A stretch of DNA of 57,913 nucleotides. It comes from Sulfurimonas sp. (GTDB lineage Bacteria > Campylobacterota > Campylobacteria > Campylobacterales > Sulfurimonadaceae). The notes beneath the pieces were generated by a model. The model saw only the letters and a program-made list of their open reading frames with translations. It was not told the origin of the DNA and did no database searches. A program made the position numbers and the translations under genes. The stretch spans positions 1 to 57,913 of the forward strand of contig JAMORK010000043.1 of assembly GCA_027063645.1 (NCBI GenBank), in the 5' to 3' direction. The stretch's first letter is position 1. Every line of letters begins with the position of its first letter. Below, piece by piece: positions 42,397 through 48,025 of this stretch.

Positions 42397-44466
42397 ATGG
42401 AAAATATAGAAACAATAGACAGTGTATGTACATACTGTGGAGTAGGGTGTGATATCGCCGCACATGTAGACACTAAAGAGAATAAAATAGTAAAAATCTT
42501 TGCTCATCCAGATGGGGTTGTTTCTCAAGGGAAGCTCTGTATTAAAGGGAAATATGGTTTTGATTTTGTCTCTGATGAGAGTCGCCTTCGTATCCCTCGC
42601 ATAAGAAAATCTTGGTTAGAGAAAAATCCTGCTATTAAAGAGGTGGTTGCTCCGAGTTTGGTAGATTTAGACGATACTTGGTTTGAAACAGACTTAGAAA
42701 ACGCGACTACTGCCTGTGCTATGAAGATGAAAGAGACACAAGCAAACTATGGAAGAAAGTCTATATGTTCTATTGGTGGGGCTCGTACATCTTGTGAGTC
42801 TTCTTACCTTTTTCAAAAATTTACACGCCATACTTTGAATTCTCCCCATGTTGACAACTGTGCTCGCGTTTGTCACTCTCCATCATTAAGTGGTATGAGA
42901 GTAACCATTGGTGAGGGTGCTGCAACTAATCCTTACAATGATATCTATAACTGTGAATTTATGATAGTGATCGGATCAAACACTACGGAAGCTCACCCTA
43001 TCATAGCAAACCGTATCATTGATGTGGCGAGAGAAAATGATAACTTGGCTGTTTTTGATGTTCGTGAGATTAAGCTACACCGTTTTTCAAAATATAAAGC
43101 GATTATGCCACACGAGGCAAACCTATTAACACTTAATATGCTCGCTTATGTAATTATTGATGAAGAGCTTTACGATGAGTCTTTCTTGGAAGATAGAACG
43201 GCTGGTTTTGCTGATTTTAAAGAAAAAATCATGAATGATCCTTATGCAAATCCTGATTATTATAAAGAGATTGAGGGGTATGAGTATCTCTCTAAGATGA
43301 TTCGTAAAGTGGCTCGTGAGTATGCACTTAAAAAATCTATGATCTTTTGGGGACTTGGAATTACTGAACACTTAGATGGCTCTTATGCTGTTATGGCAAT
43401 GGTTCATTTAGCTCTTATGACAGGCAACATAGGAAAAGCTGGAGCAGGGCTTATGCCTCTTCGTGGTCAAAATAATGTACAAGGAACTTGTGATATGGGT
43501 ATGCTTCCATATTACGACCCAGATTATCAAACACCAAAAGAGGTGGGTCTTATGACTCCTCAACTTGTGGATGAGATGTTAGAAGATAGAGTAAAAGTGG
43601 TGCTAAACATTGGTGAAGATTTGACGCATATCCATCCAAACCTTAACAAAATCGACCGTGCATTTGAGAAGCTCGATATGATTTTTGTGCAAGAACTTTT
43701 TATGACAGATATTGCCTCTCGTGCCGACATCGTAGTAGGTGTAAAATCTGCTTATGAAAAAACAGGTGTCTATGTAAACGCCATGAGACGTCTGCACCTC
43801 TCACAACCTCTTGTGAAATCTGATTTACCAGATGATTGGGAAGTGCTTCAAATTTTAGACAATAAAATGGGTGGAAGTGCTGATTATAAATCAAGTAAAG
43901 ATGTTTGGGAAGAGGTGCAACGTGTAGCTTACAGACGTTTTTCAGGTGCAGATTACCATAGACTTGAAAAACACCGTAAACGCGGTCTTCAATGGCCAGT
44001 TCATACAGAAGATACACCGATTTTACATCAACTGGACTTCCGTACAGATGATGGACTAGGACACTTTAAATACAACCAGTACAGACTTCGTGGGATGATT
44101 CAAGAGATAATGGAGAAAAAACTACAAGGGTACCATTTAAGTACAGGTCGTACACTCGCACACTATAACAATGCAGCACAAACTTCAAAAAGTGAAAAGC
44201 TTATGAGTCGTTATGATGAAGATATACTTCTTGTGTGTGAAGAGGATGCTTCTGACTTTACAAGTGAGAAAGTTATACTTAAAAGTGCATACGGAGAAAC
44301 AACTCCACTTACTGTAAAAATTACAGATAAAGTACAACCAAAAACTCTCTTTGTAACATTCCATCATGCAAAAAGTAAGATTAATGCCCTCTTTGGTGAT
44401 GCAAGAGATGAGGTTATTTTAACGGCTGCATTTAAGACTATTAAGGTTGAGGTTGTTAACTGTTAG
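42397..44466 (+). CDS. Molybdopterin oxidoreductase, formate dehydrogenase H-like (cysteine form)
   Basis: This 689-residue protein has an N-terminal [4Fe-4S] site C11-x2-C14-x3-C18-x29-C48. The molybdenum ligand region DNCARVCHSPSLSGM has C159 at the place of selenocysteine in E. coli FdhF. FGLGITEHLDG-like, GRQN-like (PLRGQNNVQGTCDMG) and a C-terminal molybdopterin-binding domain follow. It has no Tat signal, so it is cytoplasmic. No beta or gamma subunit, cytochrome or chaperone gene is adjacent. It probably oxidises formate with an unlinked electron partner; another molybdopterin substrate cannot be excluded. Confidence 0.85.
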   Translation: MENIETIDSVCTYCGVGCDIAAHVDTKENKIVKIFAHPDGVVSQGKLCIKGKYGFDFVSDESRLRIPRIRKSWLEKNPAIKEVVAPSLVDLDDTWFETDLENATTACAMKMKETQANYGRKSICSIGGARTSCESSYLFQKFTRHTLNSPHVDNCARVCHSPSLSGMRVTIGEGAATNPYNDIYNCEFMIVIGSNTTEAHPIIANRIIDVARENDNLAVFDVREIKLHRFSKYKAIMPHEANLLTLNMLAYVIIDEELYDESFLEDRTAGFADFKEKIMNDPYANPDYYKEIEGYEYLSKMIRKVAREYALKKSMIFWGLGITEHLDGSYAVMAMVHLALMTGNIGKAGAGLMPLRGQNNVQGTCDMGMLPYYDPDYQTPKEVGLMTPQLVDEMLEDRVKVVLNIGEDLTHIHPNLNKIDRAFEKLDMIFVQELFMTDIASRADIVVGVKSAYEKTGVYVNAMRRLHLSQPLVKSDLPDDWEVLQILDNKMGGSADYKSSKDVWEEVQRVAYRRFSGADYHRLEKHRKRGLQWPVHTEDTPILHQLDFRTDDGLGHFKYNQYRLRGMIQEIMEKKLQGYHLSTGRTLAHYNNAAQTSKSEKLMSRYDEDILLVCEEDASDFTSEKVILKSAYGETTPLTVKITDKVQPKTLFVTFHHAKSKINALFGDARDEVILTAAFKTIKVEVVNC

Positions 44467-44469
44467 GTT

Positions 44470-44498
44470 TTGACTTATTAGTGTGCATTTGATATAAT
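44470..44498 (+). promoter_or_regulatory. Near-consensus sigma70 promoter of the small RNA
   Basis: TTGACT (44470-44475) and TATAAT (44493-44498) are separated by exactly 17 bases, an unusually complete promoter for this phylum. It begins 3 bases after the formate dehydrogenase stop codon. The predicted start of transcription is about 44505. Confidence 0.8.
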
Positions 44499-44504
44499 AT
44501 GGAT

Positions 44505-44598
44505 GAAACACTGTTATTTCTTTTATGTTGTAGGTGACTCCTACTAATGTATTGGGTTGAAGGGCGACTAGATTTATTTCTAGTCGCCCTTTTTTTTT
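44505..44598 (+). ncRNA. Candidate regulatory small RNA (possible RNA antitoxin)
   Basis: A transcript of about 94 nt would run from the strong promoter at 44470-44498 to the terminator T run at 44591-44598. It contains AACACTGTTATTTCTTT (44507-44523), a small hairpin GTAGG-TGACT-CCTAC (44530-44544), GTATTGGGTT (44549-44558) and the terminator stem. The first and third segments are together complementary to a continuous 27-nt stretch covering the ribosome-binding site and start codon of the peptide ORF at 44639. No ORF with a ribosome-binding site is present in it. The RNA is inferred; expression is not shown. Confidence 0.7.
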
Positions 44599-44643
44599 GT
44601 GGGTGTGTTGGGTGGGAATCCAATACAAAGGAATAGCAGTGTT
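44507..44643. repeat. Split inverted complementarity between the small RNA and the peptide translation start
   Basis: 44507-44523 pairs with 44627-44643 through 17 consecutive pairs (two G-U), and 44549-44558 pairs with 44617-44626 through 10 pairs (one G-U). The downstream side (44617-44643) is continuous; the upstream side is interrupted by 25 bases that form their own hairpin. The paired region includes AAAGGA (44627-44632) and the GTG (44639-44641). Confidence 0.85.
44561..44598 (+). terminator. Strong intrinsic terminator of the small RNA
   Basis: AGGGCGACTAGA (44561-44572) is the exact inverse of TCTAGTCGCCCT (44579-44590), with a 6-base loop, followed by eight T's. It is a textbook plus-strand terminator lying between the promoter and the peptide ORF. 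Confidence 0.9.
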
Positions 44644-44701
44644 CAACAAATTAGTAGTAGTCTTTTTAATTATAATGGTGTTCGCACCATCTATAAATTA
44701 A
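44639..44701 (+). CDS. 20-residue hydrophobic peptide, candidate type I toxin
   Basis: A GTG codon, 6 bases after AAAGGA, opens a 20-codon ORF reading MFNKLVVVFLIIMVFA-PSIN and ending in TAA. Its pattern of a short polar start, a run of V/L/I/F and a small polar end resembles the membrane-damaging Ibs and Fst peptides of type I toxin-antitoxin systems. The match is in size and composition, not a proven homology. The translation start is complementary to the upstream small RNA. In-frame GTG codons at 44603 and 44612 could extend it to about 33 or 30 residues, but they lack a ribosome-binding site. No separate promoter is evident. Confidence 0.6.
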   Translation: MFNKLVVVFLIIMVFAPSIN

Positions 44702-44738
44702 ACAAAACAGAGGGATTCGTCACCCCTCTGGCTACTAC
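44654..44738 (+). other. Folded 3' region of the peptide mRNA
   Basis: GTAGTAG (44654-44660, inside the ORF) pairs with CTACTAC (44732-44738). Enclosed are ATGGTG-TTCG-CACCAT (44675-44690), a UUCG-tetraloop hairpin over the end of the ORF, and CAGAGGG...CCCTCTG (44708-44714 with 44724-44730). The last stem is followed only by a weak T-rich stretch and may stop transcription. Heavy folding is common in type I toxin mRNAs. Confidence 0.6.
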
Positions 44739-44756
44739 TTCCTCTTAATTCTCCTA

Positions 44757-44793: not shown

Positions 44794-45081
44794 ATGAAAA
44801 TATATAACCCACCGTACCTAGGCGAATTTATAAAAGAGGTTTATTTTGATGAGTTAGGTATCACTGAGAGAGAAGTTGCACAGAAATTAAAAGTAGCACC
44901 ATCTACTCTAAATCGTCTTATAAAAGGTAAAACAAGTCTTTCACCAGAGATGGCTCTTCGTTTATCAATTACACTAGGACATACCCCTGAAAGCTGGCTT
45001 GCTATGCAAGACAATTACAGTCTTTGGGTAGCTCAAAAAGAGTTGAATTTGGATGATGTTGAAGAGTTGGTTTCGGCATGA
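44794..45081 (+). CDS. higA: HigA-family antitoxin-like helix-turn-helix protein (orphan)
   Basis: This 95-residue protein is a HigA/VapI-type XRE regulator: PPYLGEFIKEVYFDELGITEREVAQKLKVAPSTLNRLIKGKTSLSPEMALRLSITLGHTPESWLAMQ covers the whole family pattern, with the helix-turn-helix at about residues 24-60. HigA normally follows and neutralises the HigB mRNA nuclease. No higB ORF is upstream or downstream; the place is taken by the small RNA and peptide unit. It overlaps mcrB by 4 bases (ATGA), so it is probably the regulator of the restriction operon. Confidence 0.85.
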   Translation: MKIYNPPYLGEFIKEVYFDELGITEREVAQKLKVAPSTLNRLIKGKTSLSPEMALRLSITLGHTPESWLAMQDNYSLWVAQKELNLDDVEELVSA

Positions 45082-46808
45082 AGATAAACAACAAAGATTT
45101 ATATTCCAAGTGGATACAAGAACAAGGGAAAAATAGTAGTTATAAAAGATCAATAGAAATATTATCTAAAATTGTTGAACAAGATATTTTTGTTATTGAA
45201 AATACTCATTTTCTTCAAGAATTATATCAAGATTTATTAGATCAACAAAAAAAAGAAAATAGTAAATATTTTCATAAAGATGCACCATCATATGGTAAAG
45301 ATGGGTTTTACTCTGCATCAATTAAGTCATATATAAATTTTTTAAAAAGTAAAGATAAGATATTAGAAAATAATACAGAAGTTAAGAAAAAAGTTATAAC
45401 AACATCATCACTAAATCAAATTCTCTTTGGACCTCCCGGTACAGGGAAAACTTACAATACTATCAATAAAGCATTAGAGATAATAGATAGTAATTTTTAT
45501 GATAGTCATAAAGAAGCTACACCTAAAAATAGGAAAATTTTAAAAGAAAAGTTTGAAGAGCTCAAAGATGCTGGACAGATAGAGTTTGTCACTTTTCATC
45601 AGAGTTATGGGTATGAGGAGTTTGTTGAGGGCTTAAAAGCATCAACTGAAGAGGGACAAATCTCTTACAATGTAGAAGATGGAATTTTTAAAAAATTATC
45701 TGTATCTGCTTTATATGATTCCATAAAATTTAAAGATATACAATCAGAATTGACATATAATGAACTCTATAGCGCACTCGTTGAAAAATATAAACGTAGT
45801 AATTATTTGGAGCTTTTATCTAAAGAACAAAAAACTATAGAAATTAGAGGAATATCAAAAAAGCAAAATTTATATTGTTACCATCAGGAGAGTAGTGTAA
45901 GACACACCGTTGGAAAAGATAGATTAAAAAAACTCTATGATGTATTTAATTCTATAGAAAAACTAGAAAGCCTTTCTCGTTTGCATGAAGAGTTTACAAG
46001 TATTATTGGTGGTGCTAATCAAACAGTGTATTGGACAGTTTTACATGAAATACTTCAAATAAAAAAAGAGCTTCATGGTGAGATAGTTATAGAAGAAGAT
46101 ATTAGCTATGAGATGAAAAAAGAAATTATAGAAACTCAAAAGCAAAAAGAATATAAAAGTGATGCGAAAAAATATATATTAATCATAGACGAAATAAACA
46201 GAGGAAATATCTCAAAAATCTTTGGAGAATTGATCACCCTTATAGAGCCATCTAAACGAATAGATGCAGATGAAGAGATACAAGTACAACTTCCTTACTC
46301 CAATGAGACTTTTGGAGTACCAAAAAATCTTTATATTATTGGTACTATGAATACGGCAGACAGAAGCATAGCATTAATGGATACAGCTCTACGAAGAAGA
46401 TTTGAATTTGTAGAGATGATGCCAAAGAGTGAACTATTAGACTTTGAAGTAGAAGGGATTTATCTAGGGGAGCTTTTAGATGTGATAAATGCTAGAGTAG
46501 AGTATTTGTATGATAGAGATCACACTATAGGACATGCTTATTTTATGGAACTTAATGAACAAAGTACTTTAGAGGAACTTGACATTATTATGAGAAACAA
46601 AATCATCCCTTTATTACAAGAGTATTTTTATGATGATTGGAAGAAAATTTTACTTATTTTAAATAATGGTTTTATACAAGAGCAAAAACAAAACGCGATG
46701 AAAATATTTGAAAGTATAGATGATGAGTATATGGAAGAGGAACATTTTATATATACCATAAAAGATAGTTTCCAAAGAGAGGCTTATGAGAGACTATGTC
46801 ATCTGTAA
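45078..46808 (+). CDS. mcrB: McrB-like AAA+ motor subunit of a type IV restriction system
   Basis: This 576-residue protein has an N-terminal region (1-105) of unknown fold that may read DNA. Walker A is GPPGTGKT at residues 118-125, Walker B is ILIIDEINRGNISKIFGEL near 366-385, and the McrB signature MNTADRSIALMDTALRRRFEF is near 424-444. About 170 residues lie between VEDGIFKKLS and Walker B, including a polar insertion. McrB hydrolyses GTP to drive McrC on DNA carrying modified cytosines. It shares 13 bases with mcrC. The gene is richer in A+T than the neighbouring housekeeping genes, consistent with transfer. Confidence 0.9.
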   Translation: MKINNKDLYSKWIQEQGKNSSYKRSIEILSKIVEQDIFVIENTHFLQELYQDLLDQQKKENSKYFHKDAPSYGKDGFYSASIKSYINFLKSKDKILENNTEVKKKVITTSSLNQILFGPPGTGKTYNTINKALEIIDSNFYDSHKEATPKNRKILKEKFEELKDAGQIEFVTFHQSYGYEEFVEGLKASTEEGQISYNVEDGIFKKLSVSALYDSIKFKDIQSELTYNELYSALVEKYKRSNYLELLSKEQKTIEIRGISKKQNLYCYHQESSVRHTVGKDRLKKLYDVFNSIEKLESLSRLHEEFTSIIGGANQTVYWTVLHEILQIKKELHGEIVIEEDISYEMKKEIIETQKQKEYKSDAKKYILIIDEINRGNISKIFGELITLIEPSKRIDADEEIQVQLPYSNETFGVPKNLYIIGTMNTADRSIALMDTALRRRFEFVEMMPKSELLDFEVEGIYLGELLDVINARVEYLYDRDHTIGHAYFMELNEQSTLEELDIIMRNKIIPLLQEYFYDDWKKILLILNNGFIQEQKQNAMKIFESIDDEYMEEEHFIYTIKDSFQREAYERLCHL

Positions 46809-48025
46809 TCACTCTTAAAGAGTATGAGTTCTTATATTTTAAGGAAGGAGAGATTAGTAATACAAAGGCTCACTATATAGAGGAGAAGAATTTTTTAGAA
46901 CTAGAAAAATTTGTTTTAGCTAATGAAGAGAGTAATCATTATCTCAAACTTAGTTCTAAAAAGGGTTTTGGTAAAATTCTACAGGCTCAAAACTATGTAG
47001 GTGTCATACAAACAAAAGATGGCACAAACATTGAAATAGTTCCCAAAATAAAAGATATAAGCATAGAAGAATCAAAAGAGATTCTTTTAAAGATGCTCAA
47101 AACCTTAAAAAAATCCCCCTTTAGGCATTTTAATAGTGCATATCTTAAAAGTTCTAAATTACCTTTATTTGAAATATTTATAAGTATGTTTTTAGAAGAA
47201 CTCTCTGTGCTAATTCGTAAAGGAATAAAAAGTGATTACATACAAAAAGAGGAGAATCTTCATTTTTTAAAAGGAAAACTTCAAATCTCTAAGCAGATAC
47301 AACACAATAGTATTCATAAAGAAAAGTTTTTTGTAGAGTATGAAGAGTTTAGTAATGATAGAGTAGAAAATAGACTTATAAAAACATGCCTAAAATATCT
47401 TTATAACAAATCAACACTTAATAAAAATCAGCAAAAAATTCGTGAATTTCTTTTTGTCTTTGATACTATTGGAGTAAGTCATACTCCCAAAAATGATTTT
47501 AAAAATTTAAAACTCAATAGGCAAATGAAAGAGTATGAATCGGTACTTATATATGCAAAAATATTTTTATATGGAAATTCTTTTGCACCCCACAAGGGCT
47601 CAGACTTAGTATTTACTCTTCTTTTTGATATGAATCTGTTGTTTGAATCGTATGTTGGAATGTATCTTAAGAAAAAAGGCTTGGATGTAGAATTACAAGA
47701 TAAAGGAAAGTATCTTGTAGAATCTCATAATAAGTTTGCGCTTAAGCCAGATATTGTAATAAATAAAGGGACAGATAAAGAGCTAATTGCTGATACAAAG
47801 TATAAAAATATATCTTCAACAAAAGATATTAGTCAATCCGATATGTACCAACTTTATGCTTATGGTACAAAGTACAAACAAACTTCACAGCTCTATTTGA
47901 TTTATCCAAAAAATGATGATTCTTTTTCTCAACACTATAGCTACATAGAAGATGAGCTTCATTTAGATATTTTGTTTTTTGATCTTACTTTAGGATTTGA
48001 TCAAGAGATAGGTTTAGTTATTTAA
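46796..48025 (+). CDS. mcrC: McrC-like endonuclease subunit
   Basis: This 409-residue McrC starts inside the end of mcrB. The N-terminal part binds McrB and stimulates its hydrolysis. The C-terminal part carries a PD-(D/E)xK nuclease core with KPDIVI, then LIADTKYKN (about residues 322-345) and DMYQLYAYGTKY. It cuts DNA after translocation by McrB. The gene converges on a cytochrome gene with an 8-base overlap, which marks the end of the restriction operon. Confidence 0.9.
   Translation: MSSVITLKEYEFLYFKEGEISNTKAHYIEEKNFLELEKFVLANEESNHYLKLSSKKGFGKILQAQNYVGVIQTKDGTNIEIVPKIKDISIEESKEILLKMLKTLKKSPFRHFNSAYLKSSKLPLFEIFISMFLEELSVLIRKGIKSDYIQKEENLHFLKGKLQISKQIQHNSIHKEKFFVEYEEFSNDRVENRLIKTCLKYLYNKSTLNKNQQKIREFLFVFDTIGVSHTPKNDFKNLKLNRQMKEYESVLIYAKIFLYGNSFAPHKGSDLVFTLLFDMNLLFESYVGMYLKKKGLDVELQDKGKYLVESHNKFALKPDIVINKGTDKELIADTKYKNISSTKDISQSDMYQLYAYGTKYKQTSQLYLIYPKNDDSFSQHYSYIEDELHLDILFFDLTLGFDQEIGLVI

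Follow-up and report, generated by a model that had tools for sequence, protein, structure and literature searches.

The window, a contig of 57,913 nucleotides from a Sulfurimonas metagenome-assembled genome that is 54% complete, carries a short module that is likely (probability about 0.68) to belong to a large and diversified family of one-promoter type I toxin-antitoxin-like modules; the transcripts, the read-through, the action of the RNA in trans and the toxicity of the peptide are inferred. The support at the level of sequence is established and comes from the parts themselves, their conservation, covariation, purifying selection and the absence of other conserved promoters. Type I toxin-antitoxin modules are already known as a kind; what appears to be new is the tandem layout with, by inference, one promoter.

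The module is flanked by a molybdopterin oxidoreductase gene (42397-44466) and an HTH-McrBC operon (44794-48025), and its features are collected in Table 1. The elements are nested in the order A-H1-B-terminator-B'-A'. Helix A/A' is a gapless 17-bp pairing of leader segment A with 44627-44643, and helix B/B' is an 11-bp pairing of segment B with 44617-44627, found by inspection, with G-U pairs allowed in both; the helices have position 44627 in common, and the 27 nt of the target are the union of A' and B'. A further long-range helix pairs the ORF arm with 44730-44739, the arm that follows the 3' hairpin (44708-44730), and it covaries too. The leader-to-ORF RNA of the window had a fold z-score of -10. 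The z-scores of this RNA and of the leader by itself, together with the recurrence of the architecture in some 60 diverged copies that carry compensatory changes, place it beyond chance.

Table 1. Features of the module, in window coordinates
Feature	Position	Strand	Support
Sigma-70 promoter, TTGACT-17-TATAAT with extended TG	44470..44498	+	Promoter scanner score 11/12
Promoter boxes	TTGACT 44470-44475, spacer 17 nt, TATAAT 44493-44498	+	
Predicted leader RNA, ~94 nt, transcription start site to T9; candidate antitoxin	44505..44598	+	Fold z = -6.8
Leader segment A, antisense to Shine-Dalgarno and start codon	44507..44523	+	Cognate versus non-cognate duplexes; permutation test
Leader hairpin H1, GTAGG-TGACT-CCTAC	44530..44544	+	Double compensatory changes at 5/5 pairs in the alignment
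Leader segment B, partner just 5' of the Shine-Dalgarno	44548..44558	+	By inspection; weaker covariation
Intrinsic terminator (stem-loop 44559-44592, 14 pairs by the scanner; T tract 44590-44598, nine T's)	44559..44598	+	Terminator scan; conservation among copies
G-rich conserved spacer GTGTTGGGTGGGA	44599..44616	+	Alignment; no promoter-like site in -10 scan
Complementary target B' and A' over Shine-Dalgarno AAAGGA (44627-44632) and start codon	44617..44643	+	
20-codon ORF, hydrophobic peptide VFNKLVVVFLIIMVFAPSIN, candidate toxin (GTG at 44639, 6 nt 3' of AAAGGA; TAA at 44699-44701)	44639..44701	+	ORF and dN/dS
5' arm of the ORF/3'-end long-range helix, AGTAGTAGTC	44653..44662	+	RNAalifold covariation
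3' hairpin CAGAGGG...CCCTCTG and 3' arm GGCTACTACT	44708..44739	+	Alignment; RNAalifold covariation

Most of what the original prediction had read in this region held. The TTGACT-17-TATAAT promoter was confirmed, with an extended TG added; the sequence parts of an RNA of about 94 nt with an intrinsic terminator are present, the transcript itself remaining a prediction; the 20-codon ORF has AAAGGA six bases before its GTG, as claimed; the tandem, same-strand layout is conserved among copies; and the claimed full complementarity of the 27 nt at 44617-44643 to two leader segments held as the 17-bp and 11-bp helices, provided that G-U pairs are allowed. An intrinsic terminator is present where a 12-bp one had been claimed, and the scanner counts 14 pairs in it. 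The claim of eight T's failed (the tract has nine), and the ORF/3'-end helix and the 3' hairpin had been missed.

The pairing of the leader with the start region of its own ORF carries most of the argument. Across 62 copies, the leader 5' end, the sequence of which differs greatly from copy to copy, paired with its own start region at a mean of -20.7 kcal/mol versus -10.4 kcal/mol with the start regions of other copies, and for 42 of the 62 leaders no start region from a copy with a dissimilar leader paired as well. The control pairing A/B' showed no difference between cognate and non-cognate partners, and B/B' covaried only weakly (cognate, -12.7 kcal/mol; non-cognate, -9.9 kcal/mol). The start codon covaried with the leader triplet opposite it (TTG/CAA, 32; GTG/CAC, 7; ATG/CAT, 4). 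With partners permuted among 50 leader clusters, the mean number of matched start codons was 11.7 and the maximum 21 (300 permutations), compared with 36 of 50 for the true partners; for starts other than TTG, 11 of 18 were matched by their own leader versus 0.6 expected with leaders from TTG copies. Outside the genus of the window, 20 of 26 terminator-bearing loci had a leader/start duplex that no more than 1 in 100 shuffles reached. These results indicate that the leader/start-region pairing is under selection and that the type I criterion of an RNA pairing with the start region of the toxin mRNA is met through cognate-specific pairing and covariation, in both cases on sequence evidence only.

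RNAalifold found double changes in 19 of 27 predicted pairs, and both H1 and the ORF/3'-end helix covaried. Run on a MAFFT alignment, it missed A/A', whose hypervariable arms cannot be aligned. Duplex energies of whole leaders proved misleading, since any leader can pair with the conserved G-rich spacer, and segment-wise tests were used instead.

The peptide ORF is conserved as well. An in-frame start lies 18 to 21 codons before the stop in 57 copies, and dN/dS over codons 5 to 20 was 0.33 (46 ORFs), indicating purifying selection, part of the codon constraint possibly coming from RNA structure. Divergent groups keep hydrophobic residues at differing nucleotides, and the wider consensus is roughly M-x-x-K-[LI]-V-V-[LI]-x-L-I-x-L-V-F-A-x-K-L-Y. 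We conclude, by inference from sequence alone, that the ORF is a real gene, and the type I criterion of a small hydrophobic ORF under selection is met. Searches with the peptides found no match in Pfam and a single chance-level match in NCBIfam (E<=10), with the caveat that such profiles are short, and a search with the element found nothing in Rfam at the gathering score, only weak matches to unrelated families.

The family is large. A DNA search of same-genus genomes gave matches in 54 of 135, and a covariance-model search, with a model built from 50 copies, was positive in 70 of the 135 Sulfurimonas genomes, with up to 7 copies per genome. Covariance model R1 finished with 6 base pairs and is thus nearly a sequence profile; its weak matches include coding sequence (L150, L151, L153 and probably L169), and matches at E about 1e-4 were accepted only after inspection. 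At the level of the order, 56 of 399 genomes and 21 of 87 genera were matched, and the full layout of promoter, leader, terminator, G-rich spacer, Shine-Dalgarno and peptide was confirmed by inspection in nine families (f1, f3, f4, f5, f6, f9, f15, f19 and f20), several weak matches being coding sequence. A diagnostic pattern of the 3' hairpin, run against 84,980 named species, matched only on contigs labelled Sulfurimonas, Sulfuricurvum, Helicobacteraceae, Campylobacterales or Campylobacterota, which places the window in Sulfurimonas or a near relative of it. Leader length is kept at about 70 to 100 nt in most copies, and the terminator stem is followed by T8 to T10 in nearly all, going down to T7 in some other families. 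One copy (L050) lacks its start codon, and another (L009, G103:C421) keeps the leader, terminator and G-rich spacer, but an unrelated ORF stands where the module ORF would be, leaving an orphan leader RNA.

Most copies are intergenic on the chromosome, frequently close behind the 3' end of a gene on the same strand, and the genes downstream vary and are often on the opposite strand. Eight copies share an orthologous position after an ilvC-like gene (L033, L046, L049, L057, L061, L062, L067 and L072), with a bioD-like gene next in most of them (gene names by eye); in these eight, both pairing arms have changed and the pairing has been kept. This context bears on the possibility that the element, instead of being a toxin module in its own right, is an attenuator or leader-peptide element controlling a downstream gene. 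Its promoter, hairpin, terminator and short ORF are similar in outline, and an HTH-McrBC operon does lie downstream in the window; but downstream genes differ among copies, including the orthologous copies L004 and L005, the pairing covers the start of the module's own ORF, and that ORF lies 3' of the terminator instead of 5'. We consider an attenuator very unlikely.

The original prediction would have been refuted by a lack of peptide conservation, and it had proposed looking for the same layout in relatives: the peptide passed, the layout recurs across Campylobacterales, and compensatory changes in the RNA/start-region pairing were found among relatives. Its failure to match a named family held in the Pfam, NCBIfam and Rfam searches. 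Its inference that the RNA acts as the antitoxin is supported by conservation and covariation, with toxicity, transcripts and trans action inferred. Two corrections are needed: nothing points to a promoter of the toxin's own, and the leader is able to act in cis too.

With respect to promoters, 54 of 57 copies had a -10 site (score of 6 or more out of 7) in front of the leader, compared with 9.7 expected. Between T9 and the Shine-Dalgarno, no copy had a -10 site that could serve the toxin (0 of 57 versus 1.6 expected), and the toxin mRNA is therefore most simply inferred to be read-through from the leader's promoter; a toxin promoter of unusual type, lacking a TATAAT-like box, remains possible. 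The separate antitoxin RNA is likewise an inference, drawn from the sequence of the conserved promoter and T9 terminator. In folding predictions for the window, the Shine-Dalgarno and start codon were unpaired with a probability of 0.50 in the toxin RNA alone and 0.02 with the leader in cis, and the family means were 0.40 and 0.20, respectively (Wilcoxon P = 6e-9). The type I criterion of an inert primary transcript is thus addressed by folding only, through the values with the leader in cis. The leader 5' end was predicted to be unpaired at 0.94 in the window and at 0.68 on average in the family. These predictions favor a leader that would be a lock in cis and, once terminated, an antitoxin in trans, two roles that the data do not separate.

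We propose that RNA polymerase would start at about 44504-44507 and usually stop at the T9 terminator. The terminated RNA of about 94 nt, with a free 5' end antisense to the Shine-Dalgarno and start codon, would be the antitoxin in trans. Occasional read-through would give the full transcript, in which the leader would pair with the start region in cis, so that the primary toxin mRNA would be born locked. Removal of the duplex, by processing or by the leader RNA being lost as transcription declines, is predicted to expose the start region, and the ORF would then yield a hydrophobic peptide of about 20 residues expected to act on the inner membrane. The start site, terminator efficiency and read-through are predictions without RNA data, and since one set of covarying changes underlies both the cis lock and the trans antitoxin, it does not separately prove trans action.

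A cis-only reading is the first alternative: the leader would be the 5' UTR of the peptide mRNA, hiding its own start region, with the terminated RNA a by-product and either no trans antitoxin or a real one yet unidentified. The nested order of the elements, which folds intramolecularly, speaks for it, as do Helicobacter-like homologues that retain a complementary 5' end without a terminator. Against it, a strong T9 terminator, needless for a simple 5' UTR, stands between leader and ORF in nearly every copy and in nine families, and the leader 5' end is predicted to be free (0.94). We hold the cis-only reading unlikely and prefer the one-promoter module.

The nearest described family to the Sulfurimonas module is AapA/IsoA of Helicobacter pylori, in which a structured primary transcript is inert, pairing is module specific and the antisense RNA is encoded on the opposite strand (PMC6733600, PMC8322730). 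The likeness covers the bacterial order, a short hydrophobic peptide, multiple copies, module-specific pairing, an upstream anti-Shine-Dalgarno, a structured primary mRNA, the inertness of which is only a folding prediction in the Sulfurimonas module, and a long-range helix with the 3' end. However, the AapA1 and AapA3 peptides have 30 aa, and the Sulfurimonas-type peptides, at about 20 aa (18 to 21), do not meet a criterion of about 30 aa; IsoA is an opposite-strand antisense RNA, whereas the Sulfurimonas-type RNA lies upstream on the same strand with its own terminator; and the Shine-Dalgarno is not masked by a 5'-3' interaction, the module 3' end pairing with codons 5 to 8 and the leader with the Shine-Dalgarno.

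A classical AapA/IsoA-type reading would make the antitoxin an opposite-strand antisense RNA from inside the ORF, with the leader complementarity serving only to make the primary transcript inert. In its favor, the AapA/IsoA family is described from Epsilonproteobacteria, its primary transcripts being inert (PMC6733600), an antisense -10 box is conserved among the Helicobacter homologues, and a promoter scan found a 10/12 antisense promoter-like site in the window ORF. Yet that site is not conserved among copies, and antisense -10 sites in the ORF/3' region of Sulfurimonas copies (8 of 57) are no commoner than in shuffles (12.1 expected). This reading is improbable, and because the antisense criterion failed, the Sulfurimonas-type modules are not filed as AapA/IsoA; a related working mode is conceivable.

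The Helicobacter-like homologues (MKLLLxIIVLMVxATPLY; L144-L149, L152, L154, L155, L172 and L174) lack the T9 terminator and conserve the antisense -10 box TAGTATAAT (TAGTATAGT in L147), which overlaps the stop codon. They probably belong to a named Helicobacter aap/Iso family; the host of L144 is taken to be Helicobacter-like from neighboring adhesin-like and UvrD-like ORFs. That they keep the complementary 5' end rests on inspection, as the automatic duplex test took the wrong -10 and missed this pairing.

Other known systems are further removed. The Ibs peptides of Escherichia coli have 18 to 19 aa, and Sib is encoded opposite ibs. The module shares with Ibs/Sib a very short hydrophobic peptide of similar composition and an RNA that would block translation; it differs in having its RNA on the same strand and in the lack of Pfam and gathering-score Rfam matches. 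In ZorO/OrzO, TisB/IstR and DinQ/AgrB of E. coli, toxin and antitoxin are encoded by non-overlapping genes, complementarity involves the 5' region of the toxin mRNA, the antitoxin RNAs come from separate, mostly divergent promoters, and the toxins have their own promoters; the ZorO 5' UTR represses itself (PMC11264685). Unlike these, the Sulfurimonas module apparently uses a single promoter for both products. No tandem version of a type I module was described in the open-access literature searched, and prior naming is not fully excluded.

A bolder reading, which could as readily prove wrong as right, is that of an order-wide one-promoter family in which transcription termination would be the switch, a stop at T9 giving antitoxin RNA and read-through giving toxin mRNA, while a single leader segment would be both trans antitoxin and cis lock; in Helicobacter, the same peptide family would have switched to an overlapping antisense antitoxin, so that the antitoxin layout would have been exchanged in evolution. 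How type I modules swap antitoxin architecture could be tested directly in the Helicobacter relatives, which have a putative antisense promoter and no terminator. If the main reading is true, toxin-antitoxin modules of this class are widespread yet unannotated in environmental Campylobacterota, and in them the balance of antitoxin to toxin made from the single promoter is set by a terminator. The roughly 50 naturally diverged, self-specific RNA pairs, changed on both sides, also form a data set for the evolution of antisense specificity.

The plasmid and phage collections searched gave no match to the element. Two IMG/VR viral contigs carry it complete: L105 (minus strand, about 6.8-7.2 kb), a filamentous (inovirus)-like genome with Zot-like and secretin-like ORFs (by eye), and L186 (1.5-1.9 kb). 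In genome G023, the locus L070 (G023:C3:172500-175000) is a CRISPR array with 36 repeats seen, the repeat ending in GATACATGTAATGTATTGAAAC, and at least two of its spacers, AAACAGAGGGATTAGTTACCCCTCTGACTACTAT and GGGGGTTGTTAATGGCTATCCCTCTGGCTGCTATTG, resemble the 3' hairpin of the element. Given these viral copies and spacers, the modules are inferred to be mobile at least sometimes. A further alternative is a MITE-like repeat element, with inverted repeats that are DNA structures and a chance ORF, for which the multiple copies, the viral contigs and the spacers could be cited; the dN/dS of 0.33, the conserved promoter and Shine-Dalgarno, an ORF nearly always of 18 to 21 codons and the stable orthologous site after the ilvC-like gene in eight genomes all but exclude it.

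The G-rich motif GTGTTGGGTGGGA is conserved at homologous positions between terminator and target; no pairing partner for it was found, and it may be a standby site, a G-quadruplex or a processing site. Downstream of the module in the window, at 44794-48025, an HTH_3 gene is followed by genes for a McrB-like AAA ATPase and McrBC-family proteins, which probably form a restriction locus.
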